In this document: positions 8,169 to 63,542 of the stretch, one piece after another
Position numbering within the stretch: the first letter of the stretch is position 1
Layout of the letters: each line of letters begins with the position of its first letter
DNA from: Lachnospiraceae bacterium
GTDB taxonomy: Bacteria > Bacillota > Clostridia > Lachnospirales > Lachnospiraceae
Length of the DNA stretch: 64,000 nucleotides
Assembly (NCBI GenBank): GCA_017439665.1
Contig: JAFSIS010000060.1
Span: 1-64,000, forward strand
Reading direction: 5' to 3'
Translations under genes and position numbers: made by a program
The notes under the pieces: generated by a model
Databases searched by the model: none
The model's input: the letters and a program-made list of their open reading frames with translations, nothing else
Told to the model about the DNA's origin: nothing

Positions 8169-8181
8169 GAATAAGGCTTAT

Positions 8182-8270
8182 GGAGATGTACCCAAGTGGC
8201 TGAAGGGACCGCTCTCGAAAAGCGGCAGGCCGGTAATCCCGGTGCGAGGGTTCAAATCCCTCCATCTCCG
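8182..8270 (+). tRNA. tRNA-Ser(CGA)
   Basis: An 89-base type II tRNA. The acceptor stem GGAGATG/CATCTCC is complete with discriminator G, the anticodon stem is CCGCT/AGCGG with loop CTCGAAA (anticodon CGA), a long variable arm GGCCGG...CCGG follows, and the T arm is GAGGG-TTCAAAT-CCCTC. No CCA is encoded. It reads UCG codons. It is one of only four plus-strand genes in the window and has its own promoter and terminator, so it is a single-gene transcription unit. Confidence 0.97.
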
Positions 8271-8290
8271 TTAAAGATTTATTTATGGCA

Positions 8291-53028: not shown

Positions 53029-56000
53029 TTATCTGCGATCTTTACATTCAGGATAAGGGAGCTGTTCCTTACTGGAGGCTGTCGCCCGGGTAAGCTGGTA
53101 TACGATCTCGCTGAAGTACCGGGGCTGAACCTGATCCGGCTTATAGTGGTTCTGCTCCTCAATCTTGTCGTAAACGTAGCTTCCCCGCTTTACTGTACCG
53201 GCTCTATAGAAGTTAAGACCGAATACGGTAATCTCTTCGTTCTCATCTGCCACATAACAGCCGGAAAACTCAAGCTCTGCTCCCCATTTTCCATCTTCCC
53301 GGTAAAAGGTAAAATACATTCCTGCATCCCCAGTAGAGCCCTTATACCAGCCCATGCCCTGCAGCTTGCCAGACAAGGACAGACCATTTAATAGCTTTCC
53401 GCCAAAACGGGTCAGCTCTGCTGCCCCTTTTTCCTCCTCCGTAATCCGGTAAACCGGGCGGTTCAGCTGTTCCACCGGTTGGGTGATCTCGTAGTCGCTA
53501 AGCTGCTCTTTCCAGTTCTTCAGCTCTTCTTCCTCCAGCTCTATGGGGTGTACCAGTCCGATCGAAGCCCCCTCAGGAAGCTCCAGCTCTTCCTCATCGC
53601 AGGTGGTAAAGCTGCCGTCCTCCATATACCGGAAACTCTTCGTCAGTCTTCCTTCTTCATATAGTCCCCAGATCAGACCAATGGCAAACTGATGCATAAC
53701 CGGATTTTTCACGAACAGCTCTGTCCAGCTTTCACTGCTCCACAGCCGTTCCGCAGATAAGGCATACTCAAGACGCTGCTTCTGGTTAGTGGTAACCGTT
53801 TTCAGCTGTTTCTTGAACTGCTTAAACTCCTCATAGGCAGCCTTTGCCTTCTCTTCCTCATCCTTTTTGCCGGGGGCAGGAAGATTCTTAAGCCGTTTCC
53901 CTTCTTCATCCAGGATCTCCAGCTCCAGAGAAGGGGTGAGGTAAACCTGAAAGCTTCTGGCTCCATAGTCGAAGGTTCGTTTCATCTCTTCATCGAATCC
54001 CAGGTTGGGTACGATCCTGTCCTCCAGCTCCTGCCTTGTGATGCCCAGCTCACCGGCCGCATTTTCCAGAGCCTGCAGGGCTGCCGTCTTTACCTGACGG
54101 TGCTTGAATTTACGGGCAATCTGATCCACCTGCATCAGTGCCTGGGAGCTTCCATTAAAGACCAGAGCCTTTACCGCTTCCGCGGCCAGGGCTCCTCTGG
54201 AATTTTGTGCCCACTCCTGAATATTTTTCCAGAAAATGGGAACCATTTTCTCCCCACCGTGGCAGGCCGCAGCATAGAGCACCCATTTCTTTTTGGCTTC
54301 CGCTCCACTTTCCAGCCATTTTCCCAAAAGCTCTGCCGCAAAGCGGTTAAGTTCCTCTTCCTTCAGGCTGGCTGCCAGCTGCTTTGCCTCCTCACTGATT
54401 CCGGGAACCGTCTTATCCGCATAGGCCACCAGAATTGCCTGTAAATATTTCTCTTCTGCTATCTCCTCCTGAAGCGTATGTACCGGCGAGAAAGGTGTTT
54501 CAAAGGCCCAGGATACCTTACGGGCTTTACCACCCTTTAACAGCAGGGTTACCATGTCCTGACCAGCCGGTGAAGCCTGATCCGTGTCGGATGTGCTCAC
54601 ACCCAGGCAGCCCCCCAAAAGCTCCTTTAACTTCTTACTTTTTTCCTTTTCCAAGGCTCCCACAAGCTGCTGATGGTATTTTTCAGCTCCCCATCCCTGT
54701 AAAGTGAGGATGGCCAGCTCCCTTTCCTGGGATTTTTTAGAGGACAGCATCTCGATCATCCTGCCTTCCCACTCCGGATGGCCCAGACAGATGGCTGAAA
54801 GAACCTCTCTCACCTGTTTGGAACTGTCCAGTGCAGTCTCTAAAATAGTCTCCTGCTCCTCTGCGGCAAAGCTGTCCAGTACCCTAAGGCAGATTCCTCT
54901 TCCCAGCACTGTTCCCTCCCGGACTCCTGCATGCACCTGCTCCACATGGTCGTTACGCCTCTTCACCAGGGCTTTCACTGCTTCATCCATAAAGGCAGCC
55001 TTCCATTTGTCATTATAGCTGCTCTCATAAACGGCTCCCAGGGCATCTGCCTGATAGACCACTGACAATCCTTCTTCTTCAAACAACTGAACCAGTGTAT
55101 CCATTTCTTCTTCCATTTTATTTCGCAGAAAGGCCTTTTCCTTCGTGATAAAAGTAAAGTTATTATTTAAAAAATTTCCTCTCATGGCCAGTGCCATCAG
55201 CACTGTACCCCGCGAATATAACTTGGGACTCTTATGCATAAGCTTCTTCAGCTTATCCTGTACTGTATACCCCGGATAGCGATAATAGGACAATCCTCTC
55301 CAGGCGTTGACAAAGGGATAGAGATCCTCCAGCTTCCTTTCTCCCAGCAGAAAGTCTCTTGCTTCCAGACTGCCTGAGGGAAGGCCCGATGTCATCTCAT
55401 GGGCCAGCTTAAAATCCAGCTTATTCTCCATATTTTTTGCAATCTCCTGATATAAGCCGGGATTTCCCACCTCTGCCTGCTTCATCAGGAAAAAATAATC
55501 ATCTGTACTTCCTTCTTTTGCCAGTTGCCGGTAAGCCTCCGGAAACTTTGCAGCTGCCTTCTGCAAAGCCCGTACCGCTTTATGATTTATACACCAACAA
55601 AGATAACGCCTGCTCTGCCGACCCAGTTCTTTGGTAAAAAGCTCCATATGATCCGTAAACCAGCTTCCATTTGTGGGAGCCATCTCTTTACAGGCAGTTA
55701 ATGCCACTTCAAAATCCATTTCCAGGGCCAGACGGATAAAATTCACAAACTTCCCGGAATGATCTATGGAAATAAAGGCCGTTCCGGTAAGGAGGGTAAG
55801 CAGATAGGTATGAAACCTCTTTCCCCGGATCAGGGTTACAGCCTTTTCGGGAAGCTCTTCTTCCGTTTGTGCCTGAAGGAAAGAAATAAGAGGCTTCAGC
55901 TCTTCCTGGGTTGGCTGGGGATCGGGGAACAGACCGGAAAGAGCTGTGATCAGATTATTTTCCAGATATTCCACCTGCTCCTGAAGAGAGGATTCCTTTT

Positions 56001-56595
56001 TCTCCTCCTTTGCAGAAAAAAGCTTTTTCAGGATGCCCTCTTTCCTTTCACTGCTTTGGGTCTTACAGGAAAATAAAAGAATCCCTGTCAGCAATACCTT
56101 TGCATTACTATATTTATGGTTGCACAATTGAATCGCTTTTTGAAGAGCCTTTGGATCCATCCTTCCGGTCTCAAACAGTTCTGCCAGACTTCTTTCCCTC
56201 AAGGCATAGCTGTTCCAGACCAGTGCCTCCGCCCGTATAGCTGTCTCCTGCTCCCTGGTCAGCCACTCCTTTAAATCCTTCAGCATCCACAGGCCATCAG
56301 CCAGTACATAATAAGCCGTGGAACCTCCCACTGCTGCTGCAAATTCTACATAGGCCTTCACTTCTTCTGTCCGTTTTCTTTTCTGCAGATATCCTGCATA
56401 TTCCCTGCTTTTTTTCTGTTTTTTTTCATCCAGCCGGGAAAAATCCTGGGGCTCTGCTGCCTTAAGAAGCACTGGGCCGCATCTCTTCGTTTCATCCAGA
56501 TACTGCTCTGCCAGCTTCTTGTTCTTCTCAGTCAGCTCCAGACTCTCCAATGCATCCATCAGCTTTTGATAGTGGTGTTCCTCTCTTAAATTCAT
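53029..56595 (-). CDS. DUF4132 protein (YehI/MolR-like) of the MoxR-VWA cassette
   Basis: The 1188-residue soluble protein is mostly helical, with HEAT-like repeats in the middle ('KKSQERELAILTLQGWGAEKYHQ', 'KFKHRQVKTAALQALENAAG' regions). The C-terminal 250 residues carry the DUF4132 signature region around 'KNPVMHQFAIGLIWGLYEEG' and 'RLTKSFRYMEDGSFTT'. The family includes E. coli YehI/MolR, whose function is unknown. Its start overlaps the SWIM gene stop codon by 4 bases (ATGA), so the two are translationally coupled. It is the last gene of the five-gene cassette. A scaffold role is inferred from the repeats. Confidence 0.85.
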   Translation of the reverse strand: MNLREEHHYQKLMDALESLELTEKNKKLAEQYLDETKRCGPVLLKAAEPQDFSRLDEKKQKKSREYAGYLQKRKRTEEVKAYVEFAAAVGGSTAYYVLADGLWMLKDLKEWLTREQETAIRAEALVWNSYALRERSLAELFETGRMDPKALQKAIQLCNHKYSNAKVLLTGILLFSCKTQSSERKEGILKKLFSAKEEKKESSLQEQVEYLENNLITALSGLFPDPQPTQEELKPLISFLQAQTEEELPEKAVTLIRGKRFHTYLLTLLTGTAFISIDHSGKFVNFIRLALEMDFEVALTACKEMAPTNGSWFTDHMELFTKELGRQSRRYLCWCINHKAVRALQKAAAKFPEAYRQLAKEGSTDDYFFLMKQAEVGNPGLYQEIAKNMENKLDFKLAHEMTSGLPSGSLEARDFLLGERKLEDLYPFVNAWRGLSYYRYPGYTVQDKLKKLMHKSPKLYSRGTVLMALAMRGNFLNNNFTFITKEKAFLRNKMEEEMDTLVQLFEEEGLSVVYQADALGAVYESSYNDKWKAAFMDEAVKALVKRRNDHVEQVHAGVREGTVLGRGICLRVLDSFAAEEQETILETALDSSKQVREVLSAICLGHPEWEGRMIEMLSSKKSQERELAILTLQGWGAEKYHQQLVGALEKEKSKKLKELLGGCLGVSTSDTDQASPAGQDMVTLLLKGGKARKVSWAFETPFSPVHTLQEEIAEEKYLQAILVAYADKTVPGISEEAKQLAASLKEEELNRFAAELLGKWLESGAEAKKKWVLYAAACHGGEKMVPIFWKNIQEWAQNSRGALAAEAVKALVFNGSSQALMQVDQIARKFKHRQVKTAALQALENAAGELGITRQELEDRIVPNLGFDEEMKRTFDYGARSFQVYLTPSLELEILDEEGKRLKNLPAPGKKDEEEKAKAAYEEFKQFKKQLKTVTTNQKQRLEYALSAERLWSSESWTELFVKNPVMHQFAIGLIWGLYEEGRLTKSFRYMEDGSFTTCDEEELELPEGASIGLVHPIELEEEELKNWKEQLSDYEITQPVEQLNRPVYRITEEEKGAAELTRFGGKLLNGLSLSGKLQGMGWYKGSTGDAGMYFTFYREDGKWGAELEFSGCYVADENEEITVFGLNFYRAGTVKRGSYVYDKIEEQNHYKPDQVQPRYFSEIVYQLTRATASSKEQLPYPECKDRR

Positions 56596-58637
56596 CCTTC
56601 TCTCCCTTCCCTGTGTTCACAGTCCTTTTCCATCGTAACCAGTGCCAGATCATAAGAGGCCTTTTTCCTGCACAGCATAAGACAAAGGGACAGATAAGCC
56701 CATGTCGTAAAAAGCTCCTCCATACAGGGCTTCACCCCATGACGCCTTTGATCCAGTCTCTCCTGCAAAAAATACAGCCTGTCTGCAAGTTGGTGAAGCC
56801 CCAGTGCTTCCCCTTCCTCACCCATGCTTTTTATCTCCTTAAGCAGCCTTTCCTGAACGGAATCCAGACCACAGACGAACAGATCTCCCAACACCTTTCT
56901 TATACTTTCCAGAAAGCTGCTCACTTTTTCTATACTTTCCTGTGCATAACCCAAGCCTATATCTGCTTCTTTTTCTTCCGCTGCCCATTCTTCTATGCCC
57001 AATTCCTCTTCAGTAAAATACTCAATGGGGTACAGACAGAGCTGCCCCTTTTCCAAATAGGGCTCTCCCAAAAAGATAACGCCGCTTTCCTTTTTCTCCT
57101 TTAGCTGCTTATTCAACCGTTCCAAAAACCGGATCGTAAGCTGTTCTTCTTTGGAATACTTTACGGCCACCAGAAGTATCCTTCCTGCTTCATCCTTAAG
57201 CTCCATGGAAAACCGCTGTTCTACAGGATCAAAAACCGCTTCTCCCAGTTTTCGGGCACCTGCCAGGACGGGCTGGCCCCTATGCTCATCCCAGCTTTTC
57301 AGCAGCCGGGAATAGTCCTTAAACACCAGCTCTTCCAATCCCTTATCATCAAGCTGTCGTTTTCCTGCGATCTCCCCTTTGGTTTCCTGACTTACCGACA
57401 GACGGCCGTCCCTGGTCACCCTGGCTCCCTTCAGATAAAACTCCGACTGTCCCAATTCTTCCCGGGTACAGTTAAGTCCCCAGGGAGCTTCTTCCCGGGT
57501 ATAGGCAGCAGCTGATCTTCTCCTTTTGGTTTCGTAAAACAGCGGCCTTGCATCCGTCCAGGTATAGAATCGTTTCTGGTTCAGCTCTAAAAAATAGTAG
57601 GTCTCTCCTTCATACCCCGTTTTACTGTGGAAAAAACGCTGGCCCATGGCTGCCAGATGAAGGCTGGCTACCGGCTCATAGGTGTCCCGGAAGCTTCCCG
57701 CCAGCTCCTTTATTTCTGAGGGTTCCTTCGCCTTTTCCAAAAGACAGGCCCGGTGGTAGAGCCACAGCAGCCTTTCCAGAAGCTCCTCTACCCGGAATGC
57801 TGCTTTTCTTTCCCTATACATCTGATACTCCGAAGCTGCCTTACGAAACTCATTTTCAACATCAGGAAGTCTTGCTCCCCGGCTGATGATGGCCAACCGC
57901 TCCATACTTTCCTGTGCCTCCCCTGAAAGCCGGGAGAGCCCTATGCCAAGCTGGAGTCCTATGACTTCCTTTATGGAGGCCGCTGTCTCCTTAAGTTCAT
58001 CCGGATCCCAGCTTTCCGCTGATTCTGCCTGCCGCTCCAGGTCTGCCAGAGATATTTTCCCCTCAGACAGCCAGATGGTCAAAATTGCCTGTGCCTTATG
58101 GACACACAGCTCCCTGCTGTGGCAGCTGCAGGTGGAAAACTCCAGTGGACTGAGCAGCTTTACTGCCATGTTCTCCCAGGGAAAGCTGACCGTAAATACA
58201 GAGCCCTCCTGCACCTGAGGAAGCTCACCGGCCTTAAGGTGAGCCAGAAACAGCCTGAAGCCTTTGGTCCGGCTAAAACGTTCCAGTTTCTTTTGAGAAA
58301 ATGCCATGATCTCCTCCTTCAGCTTTTCCCTTCCTTCTTCCACAGGCTCCTGCACGCTGTCACCATCTTCTCCCGCCTTCTGTCTGGCATAAAGGATGGC
58401 CGTGATCAGATGCCGGCAGATACTCCGGGAAGGACAGCTGCAGCTGCTCTCCCCCAGGGGAATGCGAAGCTGACACACTGCACCCTTCAGCTCTGTCCTG
58501 GCCTCTTTCTCCATCCACTCTATTTTGGGGTTTTCTGCTTCCAGATCCTTATAAGCCCGTTTTACGGTTCCTTTATTACTTATTCCGATCAGATATTCAT
58601 CGTCAGTCTGTAAAAGAAGCTGTTTTAATTCTTCCAT
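56592..58637 (-). CDS. SWIM zinc finger protein with two SWIM motifs (YehQ-like)
   Basis: The 681-residue protein has two CxCxnCxH motifs: C66, C68, C74, H76 ('SCSCPSRSICRHLITAIL') and C170, C172, C178, H180 ('TCSCHSRELCVHKAQAIL'). Each should bind zinc and may contact DNA or protein. The remainder is helical and then beta-rich with no enzyme motif; the C-terminus is acidic then helical. Length and neighbours match the E. coli YehQ type. The start has AAGGAG upstream. It lies 11 bases after the VWA gene and overlaps the DUF4132 gene. Confidence 0.85.
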   Translation of the reverse strand: MEELKQLLLQTDDEYLIGISNKGTVKRAYKDLEAENPKIEWMEKEARTELKGAVCQLRIPLGESSCSCPSRSICRHLITAILYARQKAGEDGDSVQEPVEEGREKLKEEIMAFSQKKLERFSRTKGFRLFLAHLKAGELPQVQEGSVFTVSFPWENMAVKLLSPLEFSTCSCHSRELCVHKAQAILTIWLSEGKISLADLERQAESAESWDPDELKETAASIKEVIGLQLGIGLSRLSGEAQESMERLAIISRGARLPDVENEFRKAASEYQMYRERKAAFRVEELLERLLWLYHRACLLEKAKEPSEIKELAGSFRDTYEPVASLHLAAMGQRFFHSKTGYEGETYYFLELNQKRFYTWTDARPLFYETKRRRSAAAYTREEAPWGLNCTREELGQSEFYLKGARVTRDGRLSVSQETKGEIAGKRQLDDKGLEELVFKDYSRLLKSWDEHRGQPVLAGARKLGEAVFDPVEQRFSMELKDEAGRILLVAVKYSKEEQLTIRFLERLNKQLKEKKESGVIFLGEPYLEKGQLCLYPIEYFTEEELGIEEWAAEEKEADIGLGYAQESIEKVSSFLESIRKVLGDLFVCGLDSVQERLLKEIKSMGEEGEALGLHQLADRLYFLQERLDQRRHGVKPCMEELFTTWAYLSLCLMLCRKKASYDLALVTMEKDCEHREGREG

Positions 58638-58648
58638 TTCTCCTTATC

Positions 58649-59776
58649 CTATTCCATGATCCTTCCTACGAAATCTCCAAGCTGGCAGGGTGTCATCGCT
58701 CCCACATAAGCTCCCCTGTCTGCCAGCATCTGTCCTGTTCTTCTGTCATAGGAAGGATTTGCATCCTTATCAAGCGCCGTCAGGCAGATCAGCTTTGCTC
58801 CGCTTTCGATGATCTTTGCCGCTGTACCTATGAGTCCCTCTACTCCTCCGCCTTCACAAAGATCGGAAACCAGTACCACCATAGTACGGTGGGGATTTTC
58901 CATAAGGCTCTCACAATACTGCAGGGCCCCTGCAATATAGGTTCCTCCTCCAAGCTGGATACTCATCAGCGTCGTCACCGGGTCCTCCAGATGAGCACTC
59001 AAATCTACCACCTGGGTATCAAAAATAACCAGTCTGGTGTCCAGCATGGGCAGCCTGGCAAAAATACCCGCCATGATCGCACTATGGATCACTGAGCCCA
59101 GCATGGAACCGCTTTCATCTACGGCAATGATCATTCTCCAGGAATTATATTTTTGTGTTCTTGCACTGAAATAGATCCTCTCCAGGATCAGCTGTCCCGT
59201 TTCCCTGTCATAATTCTTCAGATTTTTCTGAATCGTCTTTTGCATATCCAGATTACGGATGGAGGGCACATTGCTGGGCCTGTTCCGATCCAGTCTTCCC
59301 AAACGGGAACGTCGGATCTCTCTGTCCAGTTTTTCGGCAATCTCCTCTGCCACCTTTTTCACGATCCGGCGTGCAGCCTCCAAAATCTCTCCCTTCATCA
59401 GATGCTTTAGCTGTAAAATGGATTCCAGCAGCTCCTGATTGGGTTCCAGCTTTTCCAGCACCGTTTTGTCCGTCAGCAGTTCAGTCAGTCCATAGGTTTT
59501 TAATGCATGTCTTTCCAGAATCTCCACCGTTTCTTTGGGAAAAAGAGTACGGATCTTTCTGATCCAGGTGGCTGCTGTCAGGCGGCTTCCTTCTGTTCCC
59601 CCCTCCCTGCGGACATCCTCCCCATATTCTCTGGAGTAAAGAAAATCCAGAACCTCATCCATCTCCTGATAGGAGCTTAAGCTTTCCCCCTGAATCTCCC
59701 GGGTAAAAGAAATCTGCTTTTCGGCATAGCGTCCAAGCACCAGACGCCATCTGTTCAATATGTTTGGCTCCCTCAA
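58649..59776 (-). CDS. VWA domain protein with intact MIDAS (YehP-like)
   Basis: The 375-residue protein starts at TTG (59776) with GGGAGGA 5 bases upstream. Residues 1-205 are helical and charged. The C-terminal VWA domain has a complete metal-ion-dependent adhesion site: DESGS at 220-224, Thr279 in 'LGGGTYIAGAL', and Asp305 in 'VLVSDLCEGG'. VWA proteins with this layout work with MoxR AAA ATPases, as in RavA-ViaA, to remodel or load partners. It lies 14 bases after the DUF5682 gene. Confidence 0.9.
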   Translation of the reverse strand: MREPNILNRWRLVLGRYAEKQISFTREIQGESLSSYQEMDEVLDFLYSREYGEDVRREGGTEGSRLTAATWIRKIRTLFPKETVEILERHALKTYGLTELLTDKTVLEKLEPNQELLESILQLKHLMKGEILEAARRIVKKVAEEIAEKLDREIRRSRLGRLDRNRPSNVPSIRNLDMQKTIQKNLKNYDRETGQLILERIYFSARTQKYNSWRMIIAVDESGSMLGSVIHSAIMAGIFARLPMLDTRLVIFDTQVVDLSAHLEDPVTTLMSIQLGGGTYIAGALQYCESLMENPHRTMVVLVSDLCEGGGVEGLIGTAAKIIESGAKLICLTALDKDANPSYDRRTGQMLADRGAYVGAMTPCQLGDFVGRIME

Positions 59777-59790
59777 CTTCTTCCTCCCTT

Positions 59791-62253
59791 TTATCCTTTG
59801 ATGATAAGGCTGTTCTGCAGTTTTTCTGATACATAACGGTTTAACTGCTCTCCATAGGCATATTCCTCCGGCCTGATGGGTCTGGCCCTAAGAATATCCT
59901 TTCCCTGTTTTCCATAAAGAGCGGCTGCCTTACCGGCCAATCTATCCGTTTCCAACGGGGTAAACCAGGTAAAGGCCATCCTCAGCTGAGGTAAAAGCTG
60001 CATAAACTCCTCCGCTGACAGTCTGGCAAAAAGCTCATCCAAAAGCTCAATAAAACTGGGGTTGCCAAAGACAAAATCTCTGGCGGTAAAAAACAGTCCC
60101 TGCAAAAAGGCGGCACTTTGCTTTACCATTTCTTCTGTTCCTCTGATATAACCTTCTGCCGCCCTCATCATCTGCCGTTCATAGGAAGCATCATAGCCAT
60201 ACAAAAGTCCCAGCGCAGTTCCTTCAAGGCGGGGCCGGATTTCCTTTTGTGCCAGCAGCCTTTCCAACGCCTCCTTATATACCGGGCGCAGCTCTTCACA
60301 GCCTTCTCTGCCCATGGTCTGATAGAACATACGGAGTACCTCTGTACATTGTTCTTCCTGCTCCTCTGCCACAGTCCCCATGGAGGGCAGAAGTCCGATC
60401 AGCTTATGAAAGCAGCCCTGAAGCAGCTTTTGTAAATCCAGCTCTTTACTGACCTTATACAGTTCTCTCAGCTCTTTAAGCATCAGCAGATAAGAAAAAC
60501 CTTCTGACAGAGAGAAAAAATCTCCATCCTGTACCAGTACCCTGGAGATCTCCTCTCCCATTTTTCTTTGTTCATCTGCTATCCCCATCAAAAATCCCTT
60601 TACCAGAAGCTGTGCAGCTTCTCTGCAGCAGGTACTTTTGCTTAATCGGCTGTTTAACTGTGCCCGGACAGCTTCCTCCACCGTTCCACCGGATACCGAA
60701 TATTCGATCAGGGCAGGAATGATCCGACTGGACCACTTATAGCGCCAGATCTCCCGGATGCGGTTCTTATCCCTTCTTCTCACCAGATCCGCTCCTTCTT
60801 TTCTATGGGCAAAACCACAGGCCAGGAAATCGGTCTGATGGAGGAAACGACTTAACTTTAGATGCTTCCTGCTTCTGAAAATTTCCAGGGTAAGCTCTGT
60901 CTCCAGCGTGGAATGAAGCTTCAGGCCAAAAGCCTGGCATTGCTTCTCAAAATCCCCGATGAGAGGCGGCTGATCTGCTCCCGGACAGAGTCTGCCTACC
61001 TGACTTCCTCTGATCAGCTCCTCCAAAATCTCCAGAGGCTTACGACTGGAAATCGTATATTCTCCTTTGACAAAGGAGGACAAGGCCGCATCCTTCAGCT
61101 CGTACAGACCAGGCTCCTTTTTTCCTCTGAGCGCTGCCAGCCCCTCTGCCATGGAATAGCCACAGATCTCATCATAAGAGGAAATCCCTTCATCCTTCTG
61201 CCTGGCTTTTTTCCCCGAAAGTGCCAGATAGTGCAAAGCAGCATCCCGATAAGCACCCTCTGTATTTTCCTTCTCATCCAGCGTCTCCCATACTCTTTGA
61301 TAAAAGCCCGGTGACTGCATACCGCTGGCATAACCATTCAGGGCATCTGCTGCCTCCATGGAATAGGACATGGGATAAACCGGCTGATCTCCTTTCGGAA
61401 TTTTATGGAGCTTTACCTCCTGCCCGCAAAACTCATAGCTTCCACTTTTCTTTTCTAACAGACTGCAGATTCCCGAGCTGTGAAAACCTCCGGTAACGAC
61501 CAGAACTTTTCTGTATTTTGCTGATTCCTCTGCAATCTTCCATGCCATATACTGCTCACGGCCCAGGCAGCCATCCTCCTTAAGCTCCTGCTTCGTCGTA
61601 TACTGTCTGGACAAAAAGCAGTAGGTATGCATCTGTTCCACAAAATCGGCAGTAGTCTGTCTGAGTCCCTGGATTTCAAAATATTTCTCCCATAGCTCCT
61701 CAAAGCTGCGCAAGCTGGTTTTTTCACAAAGAAGCTCAAAAAAACGGCTTCGGCTCAACAGATAATCATCATTATAGCTTAACTCTTCCCCTTCCTTAAG
61801 CCTTTCTGCCCTTTCACCTGCAGCCTGCAGAAGGATCTCTCCATAAGGAAGATCTATAAAGTGAACAGGAATCTGCCCTTTTTTTGCCTCTCTGAGTGCC
61901 ACCAGCTCAGGGGAAAAATCCAGAAAAGGATAGTAACACTTATAATCCTCTTTTTTGTCGCTGATCAGACCCTCCTTATCGGAATAGGCATAATACAAAG
62001 CTATGGGAGCCTGGGTTTCATCCTCTGCCAGGACGGGGATCAGTGCACCTGCATTCTCCGGCCCCTCCACCAGAATACTTTCAGGCTCATATTCCTGAAT
62101 CGCTTTTTTCAGATGGAAGGCACAGGCCGGACTGTGGTGGCGGACAGGAAAAAACAGAACAGGAAGCTTAAGGTCATAGGACAGCTCTGGGGGAAGAGAA
62201 AGCCCCCCACCTTTTAGTTCAGGTATTTCCTGGCCTCGTAGTACTTCTTCCAT
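59791..62253 (-). CDS. DUF5682 protein (YehM-like) with TraB/TIKI/ChaN-like motifs
   Basis: The 820-residue protein has no signal or membrane helix. The N-terminal 270 residues contain 'FFPVRHHSPACAFHLKKAI' (RHHS at 38-41), 'ESILVEGPENAG' (62-68), 'GREQYMAWKIAEE' (231-243) and 'KVLVVTGGFHSSGI' (249-262). The order His...Glu...R(D/E)xxM...GxxH matches the pattern of the TraB/TIKI/ChaN/EreA hydrolase superfamily as I remember it; that link is inference. The C-terminal 500 residues are helical repeats. It overlaps the MoxR gene by 40 bases, with GAGGGAGG before the ATG. It is the second gene of the cassette. Confidence 0.82.
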   Translation of the reverse strand: MEEVLRGQEIPELKGGGLSLPPELSYDLKLPVLFFPVRHHSPACAFHLKKAIQEYEPESILVEGPENAGALIPVLAEDETQAPIALYYAYSDKEGLISDKKEDYKCYYPFLDFSPELVALREAKKGQIPVHFIDLPYGEILLQAAGERAERLKEGEELSYNDDYLLSRSRFFELLCEKTSLRSFEELWEKYFEIQGLRQTTADFVEQMHTYCFLSRQYTTKQELKEDGCLGREQYMAWKIAEESAKYRKVLVVTGGFHSSGICSLLEKKSGSYEFCGQEVKLHKIPKGDQPVYPMSYSMEAADALNGYASGMQSPGFYQRVWETLDEKENTEGAYRDAALHYLALSGKKARQKDEGISSYDEICGYSMAEGLAALRGKKEPGLYELKDAALSSFVKGEYTISSRKPLEILEELIRGSQVGRLCPGADQPPLIGDFEKQCQAFGLKLHSTLETELTLEIFRSRKHLKLSRFLHQTDFLACGFAHRKEGADLVRRRDKNRIREIWRYKWSSRIIPALIEYSVSGGTVEEAVRAQLNSRLSKSTCCREAAQLLVKGFLMGIADEQRKMGEEISRVLVQDGDFFSLSEGFSYLLMLKELRELYKVSKELDLQKLLQGCFHKLIGLLPSMGTVAEEQEEQCTEVLRMFYQTMGREGCEELRPVYKEALERLLAQKEIRPRLEGTALGLLYGYDASYERQMMRAAEGYIRGTEEMVKQSAAFLQGLFFTARDFVFGNPSFIELLDELFARLSAEEFMQLLPQLRMAFTWFTPLETDRLAGKAAALYGKQGKDILRARPIRPEEYAYGEQLNRYVSEKLQNSLIIKG

Positions 62254-63338
62254 ATGCCTCCCTCTCTATCCCCCTTATCACGTACAACGGTTTGAAAATA
62301 ACCTCTCAGTTTTTCCAGATCCTCTTTATTTTCCTTCTGTACCGCTCCCACCAGATTCTGCACCAGCTGCCCCAGATCCATGCGGGAGTCCCCGTAATAA
62401 TAAGCAGCCATCATGGTCTGGTAATAAACGGAAACGGCTTCTGCCGTACTCATCACTGCATTTGGACGGTCTATCCTGTGTCCCATGGAGGACTGACCCT
62501 CTCTAAGCTCGTGATAGGTAGAAGCCAGCAGCTGGGCTACATTCTCATCCATATCCATTTGGATCCGGTTTGCTTCGGCAAGCTCCTCCACCTCACTTAA
62601 AATGATCTGTTTCTCCATTGCCACATCCCGGATGGGCATCACCGTTTCAAAGTTAAATCGCCGCTTCAGGGCACTGCTCATTTCATTAACACCCTTGTCC
62701 CGGGTATTGGCCGTCCCGATGATGTTGAAGCCAGGCCTGGCAAAAAGAAGGCCGCTTTCTCCCAGCTCCGGAACGTTTAACACCTTATCACTGAGTACGC
62801 TGACCAGACTGTCCTGAATCTCTGAAGGGGTACGGGTAATCTCTTCAAAACGGGTCAGGATTCCTTTTTCCATTCCCACATAGAGGGGTGAGGGCACCAG
62901 TGCTTCCCTGACCGGTCCCTTTGCCAGAAGAAGGGCATAATTCCAGCTGTATTTGATCATATCCTCCGTGGTTCCTGCCGTTCCCTGGATGGTATTCGTG
63001 CTGACTCCGCTTATGGCCGCGGAAAGAAGCTCCGAAAGCATAGTCTTAGCCGTTCCCGGTTCTCCTACCAGCATCAGTCCTCTGTTACCCGCCAACGTGA
63101 TAATGCAGCGTTCCACCAGGGTATCATTTCCCAGATATTTTTTACGAATGCTGATCTCTTCTCCATTCCAGCTGATGGGTTCTTTACTTCCCAGAATGAA
63201 TTTTCGGACTGCCTGGGGGGACAGCTTCCAGTTCAGCGGCTTTTTCCCCTGATCCTCGGCTGCCAGAGCCTCCAGCTCCTTGCGATAGCGCACCTCTACC
63301 GGGGGACGCATTTCCATCCTGCTTACCTCTTCCTTCAT
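62214..63338 (-). CDS. MoxR-type AAA+ ATPase (YehL-like)
   Basis: The 374-residue protein has Walker A 'VGEPGTAKTMLSELL' (GEPGTAKT at 92-99), a MoxR-type insertion ('STNTIQGTAGTTEDMI'), Walker B region 'KGILTRFEEITRTP' (about 158-171) with Glu-Glu instead of Asp-Glu, sensor 1 'FNIIGTANTRDKGVNEM' and the arginine-finger segment 'SALKRRFNFE'. MoxR ATPases act as chaperone-like machines with VWA partners. The start has AAGGAGG upstream. It is the first gene of the cassette. Confidence 0.92.
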   Translation of the reverse strand: MKEEVSRMEMRPPVEVRYRKELEALAAEDQGKKPLNWKLSPQAVRKFILGSKEPISWNGEEISIRKKYLGNDTLVERCIITLAGNRGLMLVGEPGTAKTMLSELLSAAISGVSTNTIQGTAGTTEDMIKYSWNYALLLAKGPVREALVPSPLYVGMEKGILTRFEEITRTPSEIQDSLVSVLSDKVLNVPELGESGLLFARPGFNIIGTANTRDKGVNEMSSALKRRFNFETVMPIRDVAMEKQIILSEVEELAEANRIQMDMDENVAQLLASTYHELREGQSSMGHRIDRPNAVMSTAEAVSVYYQTMMAAYYYGDSRMDLGQLVQNLVGAVQKENKEDLEKLRGYFQTVVRDKGDREGGIWKKYYEARKYLN

Positions 63339-63455: not shown

Positions 63456-63490
63456 CAAATAAAAAGGTGCTGCAAAATTTTGCAACACCT
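63456..63490 (-). terminator. Terminator of the CPBP gene
   Basis: Minus-strand AGGTGTTGCAAAA and TTTTGCAGCACCT form a 13-base-pair stem with one G-T pair, followed by TTTTTATTT. It isolates the MoxR cassette from the upstream gene. Confidence 0.9.
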
Positions 63491-63542
63491 CGTGTTAACT
63501 ATTTTTCTTATTTCATCCCTGCCTTCTTTTAAAAGAAACCTG

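Follow-up and report, generated by a model that had tools for sequence, protein, structure and literature searches.

The YehL system: a conserved five-gene MoxR-VWA cassette with a Tiki/TraB-like DUF5682 protein in a Lachnospiraceae genome

The cassette and its E. coli counterparts

Within the 64,000-nucleotide stretch of Lachnospiraceae DNA that we analysed (hereafter the window), five consecutive genes on one strand encode a MoxR ATPase, a DUF5682 protein, a VWA protein, a SWIM zinc-finger protein and a DUF4132 protein (Table 1). The spacing described in an earlier note, made from the sequence alone, is exact to the base in the ORF coordinates: MoxR and DUF5682 overlap by 40 bases and SWIM and DUF4132 by 4, while gaps of 14 and 11 bases separate DUF5682 from VWA and VWA from SWIM. 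The upstream terminator that the note had placed at 63456-63490 was found as a terminator-like hairpin with a T-run, lying between the cassette and a CAAX-protease-like gene. A search for a cassette promoter or operator returned 10 promoter-like matches against 9.7 expected from shuffles, i.e. no excess. Downstream of the cassette lies a tetrapyrrole-methylase-family gene, which we read as rsmI. The sole tRNA gene of the window, and its sole Rfam match, is a tRNA-Ser (anticodon CGA) at 8181-8271.

Table 1. Features of the cassette, with positions in the window.
Feature	Position	Strand	Length and domain match
MoxR AAA+ ATPase, YehL subfamily	62214..63338	-	374 aa; Pfam AAA_5 E 7e-33
DUF5682 protein, YehM counterpart	59791..62253	-	820 aa; Pfam DUF5682 E 3e-102
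VWA (CoxE-like) protein, YehP counterpart	58649..59776	-	375 aa; Pfam VWA_CoxE E 1e-41
SWIM zinc-finger protein, YehQ counterpart	56592..58637	-	681 aa; Pfam SWIM E 2e-5
DUF4132 protein, YehI counterpart	53029..56595	-	1188 aa; Pfam DUF4132 E 3e-56, weak HEAT_2
Terminator-like hairpin with T-run	63464..63491	-	

All five families occur together in the yeh cluster of E. coli, as the earlier note had stated. In MG1655 the order is yehH-yehI (two DUF4132 genes) followed by yehL-yehM-yehP-yehQ, so that the MoxR-DUF5682-VWA-SWIM order is identical in both bacteria, whereas DUF4132 precedes this block in E. coli and follows it in the window; the second E. coli DUF4132 gene, yehH, is a pseudogene in K-12. 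The window MoxR protein is 49% identical to YehL over 367 columns, compared with a 35-residue patch of similarity to RavA, which places it in the YehL subfamily, one of seven named MoxR subfamilies (PMC3893208). The VWA protein is 42% identical to YehP. A match to the yehL-Q block was found in 5301 of 5426 complete E. coli genomes (98%), nearly always on the chromosome, with at least 80% of the block covered in 5162 of them; the block is thus near-core in this species. The cluster is nevertheless dispensable, because a reduced-genome K-12 derivative lacks the block (PMC10652928) and the DUF4132 region is disrupted in a branch of ST131 (PMC9334617). In the literature searched, most subscription journals being outside its scope, the yeh genes appear mostly as list entries and DUF5682 is named nowhere.

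The MoxR-VWA pair, its relatives and its partner proteins

The MoxR protein retains the expected motifs in the alignment, namely Walker A (GEPGTAKT), a Walker-B-like RFEE(I/L)TR, the sensor TANTRD and the RRF arginines. The MIDAS motif of the VWA protein is likewise intact, with D220-x-S222-x-S224, T279 and D305 all in invariant columns, and in 10 aligned relatives the protein ends at the domain or within about 30 residues after it. By profile comparison, the nearest solved relative of the MoxR protein is midasin (Rea1/Mdn1; E 3.5e-22), which likewise couples AAA modules to a MIDAS domain. Midasin, however, is a single giant eukaryotic protein of ribosome assembly, whereas the window encodes separate small subunits together with a hydrolase-like partner.

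Two bacterial systems share the pairing of MoxR with VWA. The parallel with RavA-ViaA drawn by the earlier note stands as an analogy but not as family membership: only a Walker-A patch (E 0.003) and a short MIDAS patch (E 0.02) align, the ATPase and the VWA protein are not of the RavA and ViaA types, and the ravA locus of E. coli has no DUF5682, SWIM or HEAT partner. The vWA-MoxR ternary systems, like the cassette, combine a MoxR-vWA core with further dedicated components (PMC7159879). In contrast to them, the window has a constant enzyme-like partner, DUF5682, and none of the VMAP, iSTAND, FtsH or beta-propeller third components, for which Pfam found no match in the partner proteins up to E 1. 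Its MoxR protein matches the bpMoxR model below the cut-off only, and the partner set is constant, without diversifying effector domains behind the vWA domain. YehL, YehP and DUF5682 are not mentioned in the text describing the ternary systems (PMC7159879).

The SWIM protein of the window carries two C-x-C...C-x-H motifs, in agreement with its earlier description as a double SWIM protein. The second motif is optional, however: among 81 SWIM proteins, 39 have two motifs, 41 have one and 1 has none, and we therefore regard the doubling as a feature of a branch. In one planctomycete protein (L074:11164-13011), the cysteines and the histidine of the zinc finger are replaced while the remainder of the protein is kept. 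The DUF4132 protein consists of HEAT-type repeats and a C-terminal DUF4132 domain; HEAT_2 was detected in 7 of 15 DUF4132 relatives.

A Tiki/TraB-like domain in the DUF5682 protein

The DUF5682 protein is made up of an N-terminal Tiki/TraB-like hydrolase domain (about residues 30-270) and a C-terminal helical solenoid, and its AlphaFold models reach a pLDDT of 91 at full length and 94 for the N-domain. In 66 of 66 relatives, R38 H39 H40 S41 P42, E63, P65, S114 P115 E116, D134, W188, E193, R216, R232 E233, M236, G255 and H258 are invariant; the first position of the GxxH motif is Pro in 52 of these and Gly in 12. The invariant positions of a comparison set of ten TraB/GumN proteins include G90, H93, E117, D194, R264, G285 and H288. 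When the full DUF5682 profile was aligned with two TraB proteins, in a run without controls of its own, the match was collinear over residues 30-270 and paired H39 with H93, E63 with E117, R232 with R264 and H258 with H288. The spacing of 24 between H39 and E63 equals that between H93 and E117. DUF5682 thus has the conserved GxxH, Glu and second His of the superfamily, the whole GxxH...E...R...GxxH set being in the same order and at near-equal spacing. The N-domain profile alone matched the ten TraB/GumN proteins at 71% (E 4e-5), the aligned part being the C-terminal third of the domain, and all controls (twelve column shuffles, a reversed copy and four unrelated families) stayed at or below 1.2%.

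Because Foldseek returned only solenoid noise with the full-length model, the N-domain was searched separately. Near the top of the resulting list stand EreC, BcR135 and ChaN, fold neighbours from the TraB/PrgY/GumN and Tiki superfamily, which takes in erythromycin esterase; they hold ranks 2, 4, 5, 7, 10 and 11, each hit being weak (E 0.04-0.5, TM about 0.3). The N-domain may share the parallel beta-sheet core of Ere and ChaN. ChaN is also among the weak Pfam matches of DUF5682, and a sequence search of the PDB gave no convincing relative. One study lists BcR135 and ChaN as structures of the Tiki superfamily, takes the Ere family as mechanistic model and describes at least one protein of the superfamily with neither the catalytic motif nor activity (PMC6254334). 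Combined, these sequence and fold comparisons are good evidence that the N-domain is homologous to Tiki/TraB hydrolases, bearing on homology rather than on activity, and the hydrolase-like character that the earlier note had proposed is strengthened as a prediction. Unlike TraB and Tiki proteins, DUF5682 has the additional invariant SPE, W188 and E193, a long C-terminal helical solenoid and a place in a MoxR-VWA operon.

In five Streptomyces records (e.g. L007:8340-12107), DUF5682 and VWA are fused into a single uninterrupted chain of about 1255 aa. This fusion is our best hint that the two proteins may contact each other directly. At one other locus (L109, G142:C158), the DUF5682 frame is broken by one TAG.

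Distribution, layouts and genomic setting

Searching 84,980 species genomes with the VWA alignment gave at least 587 confirmed matches, of which the best 80 were used for a locus survey. These best 80 span about ten phyla, with several genomes being MAGs and the phylum taken as labelled: Clostridia, Bacilli, Bacteroidota, Spirochaetota, Verrucomicrobiota, Cyanobacteria, Pseudomonadota, Actinomycetota, Planctomycetota and Acidobacteria-type genomes. Of the 80 loci, 62 carry the complete set of five on a single strand, as the earlier note's idea of a dedicated set conserved between distant phyla had implied; many of the remaining loci end at contig edges, two (L060 and L088) have no partners within 10 kb and one (L067) is a short contig. 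The window's order is found in 38 of the 62, DUF4132 comes first in 23 and stands at both ends in 1. While MoxR-DUF5682-VWA is nearly invariant, DUF4132 may lie before, after or inside the set.

Given that the 80 loci had been selected by VWA score, we added an even draw of 438 genomes, 219 from Bacillota and 219 from the phylum of a Pseudomonas locus (L064). DUF5682 was found in 5 and 12 of these, respectively, and strong matches to YehP-type VWA occurred in the identical 17 genomes (Fisher p 6e-31, of descriptive value since the 438 genomes are not independent), so the co-occurrence predicted earlier holds in this sample. Both genes share one locus in 16 of the 17, the exception (G577) being split by a contig break. 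Strong matches to YehQ-type SWIM were present in 11 of the 17 (3 in Bacillota and 8 in the other phylum), and the cassette included DUF4132 each time; a further 4 Bacillota genomes and 2 of the other phylum had DUF4132 alone. In the window's own family, 21 of 200 genera have the VWA gene. The system is therefore fixed in content and patchy in occurrence. Mirror-tree correlations among the cassette proteins ranged from 0.78 to 0.97, values of little proof without a species-tree baseline.

A second layout, likewise of five genes (SWIM-DUF5691-MoxR-DUF5682-VWA), is present at eight loci (Fusobacterium L005, Methylobacterium L010, L104-L108 and L110), where a different HEAT-repeat protein occupies the DUF4132 slot; these loci were found with a profile built from six of these HEAT proteins and belong to Pseudomonadota, Fusobacterium and one Bacillota genome. 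Pfam assigned DUF5691 to 4 of the 6 proteins scanned. The upstream SWIM protein has roughly 435-480 aa, and the two kinds of SWIM protein are related beyond the zinc finger (hhalign 94.5%, E 8e-8). Most DUF5682 members of this layout outscore the window's type with the Pfam model. A three-gene minimal system was ruled out, as the SWIM and DUF5691 genes lie upstream in the loci concerned, indicating that the system has five slots and that two kinds of protein can occupy the HEAT slot. Accordingly, of the scaffold role that the earlier note had given to DUF4132, the HEAT-type candidate stands but the fixed component does not. DUF4132 and DUF5691 were rejected as clear homologues, since their profiles reach a probability of only 5% when compared. 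Cross-matches do occur, in a single case each, between a DUF4132 protein and the DUF5691 model (E 5e-4) and between a protein of the DUF5691 slot and the DUF4132 profile (E 9e-7); what can safely be said is that they share HEAT repeats. One genome (G593) holds both layouts, on contigs C24 (L108) and C32 (L112), the latter with three consecutive DUF4132 genes.

The genes around the cassette are of ordinary kinds (regulators, transporters, enzymes). Across 75 loci, no particular family turns up repeatedly in the flanks, and the neighbours give no hint of a substrate. The flanks are not rich in defence genes, almost all defence-type matches there being single. No relative of the cassette was found among 2.9 million viral contigs, and the curated defence families of PADLOC gave no meaningful match. 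Unnamed PHROGs families, of putative phage origin, match four of the cassette proteins. A record labelled 'Bacteriophage sp.' (MT835988.1), which contains MoxR-DUF5682-VWA, was considered as a case of phage carriage and rejected; its genes for a RarA/MgsA-type ATPase, DUF5717 and a polysaccharide deacetylase identify it as a bacterial fragment, and the label is probably wrong. The cassette also occurs on plasmids, some of them conjugative. On a mobilizable Iodobacter plasmid, the cassette adjoins type I restriction-modification genes, transposases and an integrase, and its SWIM gene is seemingly split into two reading frames.

A candidate ATP-driven machine and its rivals

The fixed gene set with its two layouts, the Tiki-type residues and the DUF5682-VWA fusion lead us to propose, with a probability of roughly one half, that the five proteins act as one ATP-driven protein-remodelling machine, the YehL system, in which a MoxR-VWA motor works with a Tiki-fold, hydrolase-like DUF5682 protein and adaptors. 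The MoxR ATPase would be the motor and the MIDAS-bearing VWA protein its co-factor, and the pair would pull on or rearrange a target in a midasin-like manner. DUF5682 would bind VWA directly within such a complex, and its active site would either cut the remodelled target or be switched by it, so that catalysis may be gated. The SWIM protein and the HEAT-repeat protein (DUF4132 here, DUF5691 in the second layout) would serve as adaptors that choose the target. MoxR-VWA machines as a kind are already known. More tentatively, the YehL system could represent an undescribed class of ATP-dependent regulated hydrolase, of protease or esterase type and unrelated to Clp, Lon, FtsH, HslUV and the proteasome, in which the motor feeds a Tiki-fold enzyme through exchangeable HEAT/SWIM adaptors; the literature searched contains no description of a MoxR-VWA machine with five slots and a Tiki-type partner.

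CoxD, NorQ and RavA-ViaA are thought to act as maturation chaperones, and dedicated maturation genes of the MoxR family (coxD, norQ) adjoin their target. The cassette might accordingly be a chaperone that assembles a dedicated complex or inserts its cofactor, with DUF5682 as a structural or cofactor-binding, ChaN-like protein rather than a hydrolase. Known MoxR proteins do mature specific complexes (PMC3893208), and ChaN, which appears among both the Foldseek and the weak Pfam matches, is a haem binder. No target enzyme accompanies the cassette, however, the flanks contain no recurring specific family, and the hydrolase-type residues of DUF5682 are invariant in all relatives aligned, which makes this reading rather unlikely.

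A slightly weaker case can be made for an accessory machine of the stress, DNA-damage or metal response, whose SWIM and WGR-bearing DUF4132 adaptors would bind nucleic acid. Deinococcus DUF4132/WGR genes are strongly up on DdrO depletion (PMC8533742), one DUF4132 relative carries a WGR domain, and a yehM mutation was seen in copper-evolved E. coli (PMC12409786). The Deinococcus genes, however, are not established as members of a full cassette, the copper link is this one mutation, and by Pfam the window's DUF4132 protein has no WGR domain. Such a role is compatible with the remodelling machine proposed above and differs from it mainly in setting. A defence or conflict system akin to the ternary systems, sensing invasion and using the Tiki hydrolase as effector, is improbable: the common MoxR-vWA core, the patchy spread and the plasmid copies, one of them beside a restriction-modification system, are outweighed by a partner set that does not vary as effectors do, by the negative viral, PADLOC, third-component and flank searches, and by the near-core presence in E. 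coli, so the phage-conflict role raised in the earlier note found no support.

The proposed remodelling machine bears on yehI, yehL, yehM, yehP and yehQ, five E. coli genes to which no function is assigned. The fixed set, an enzyme-like Tiki/TraB member with candidate catalytic residues and an exchangeable HEAT subunit allow a concrete and cheap test in a laboratory strain, and a positive outcome would place an ATP-dependent regulated hydrolase class in E. coli K-12 as well as across about ten bacterial phyla.
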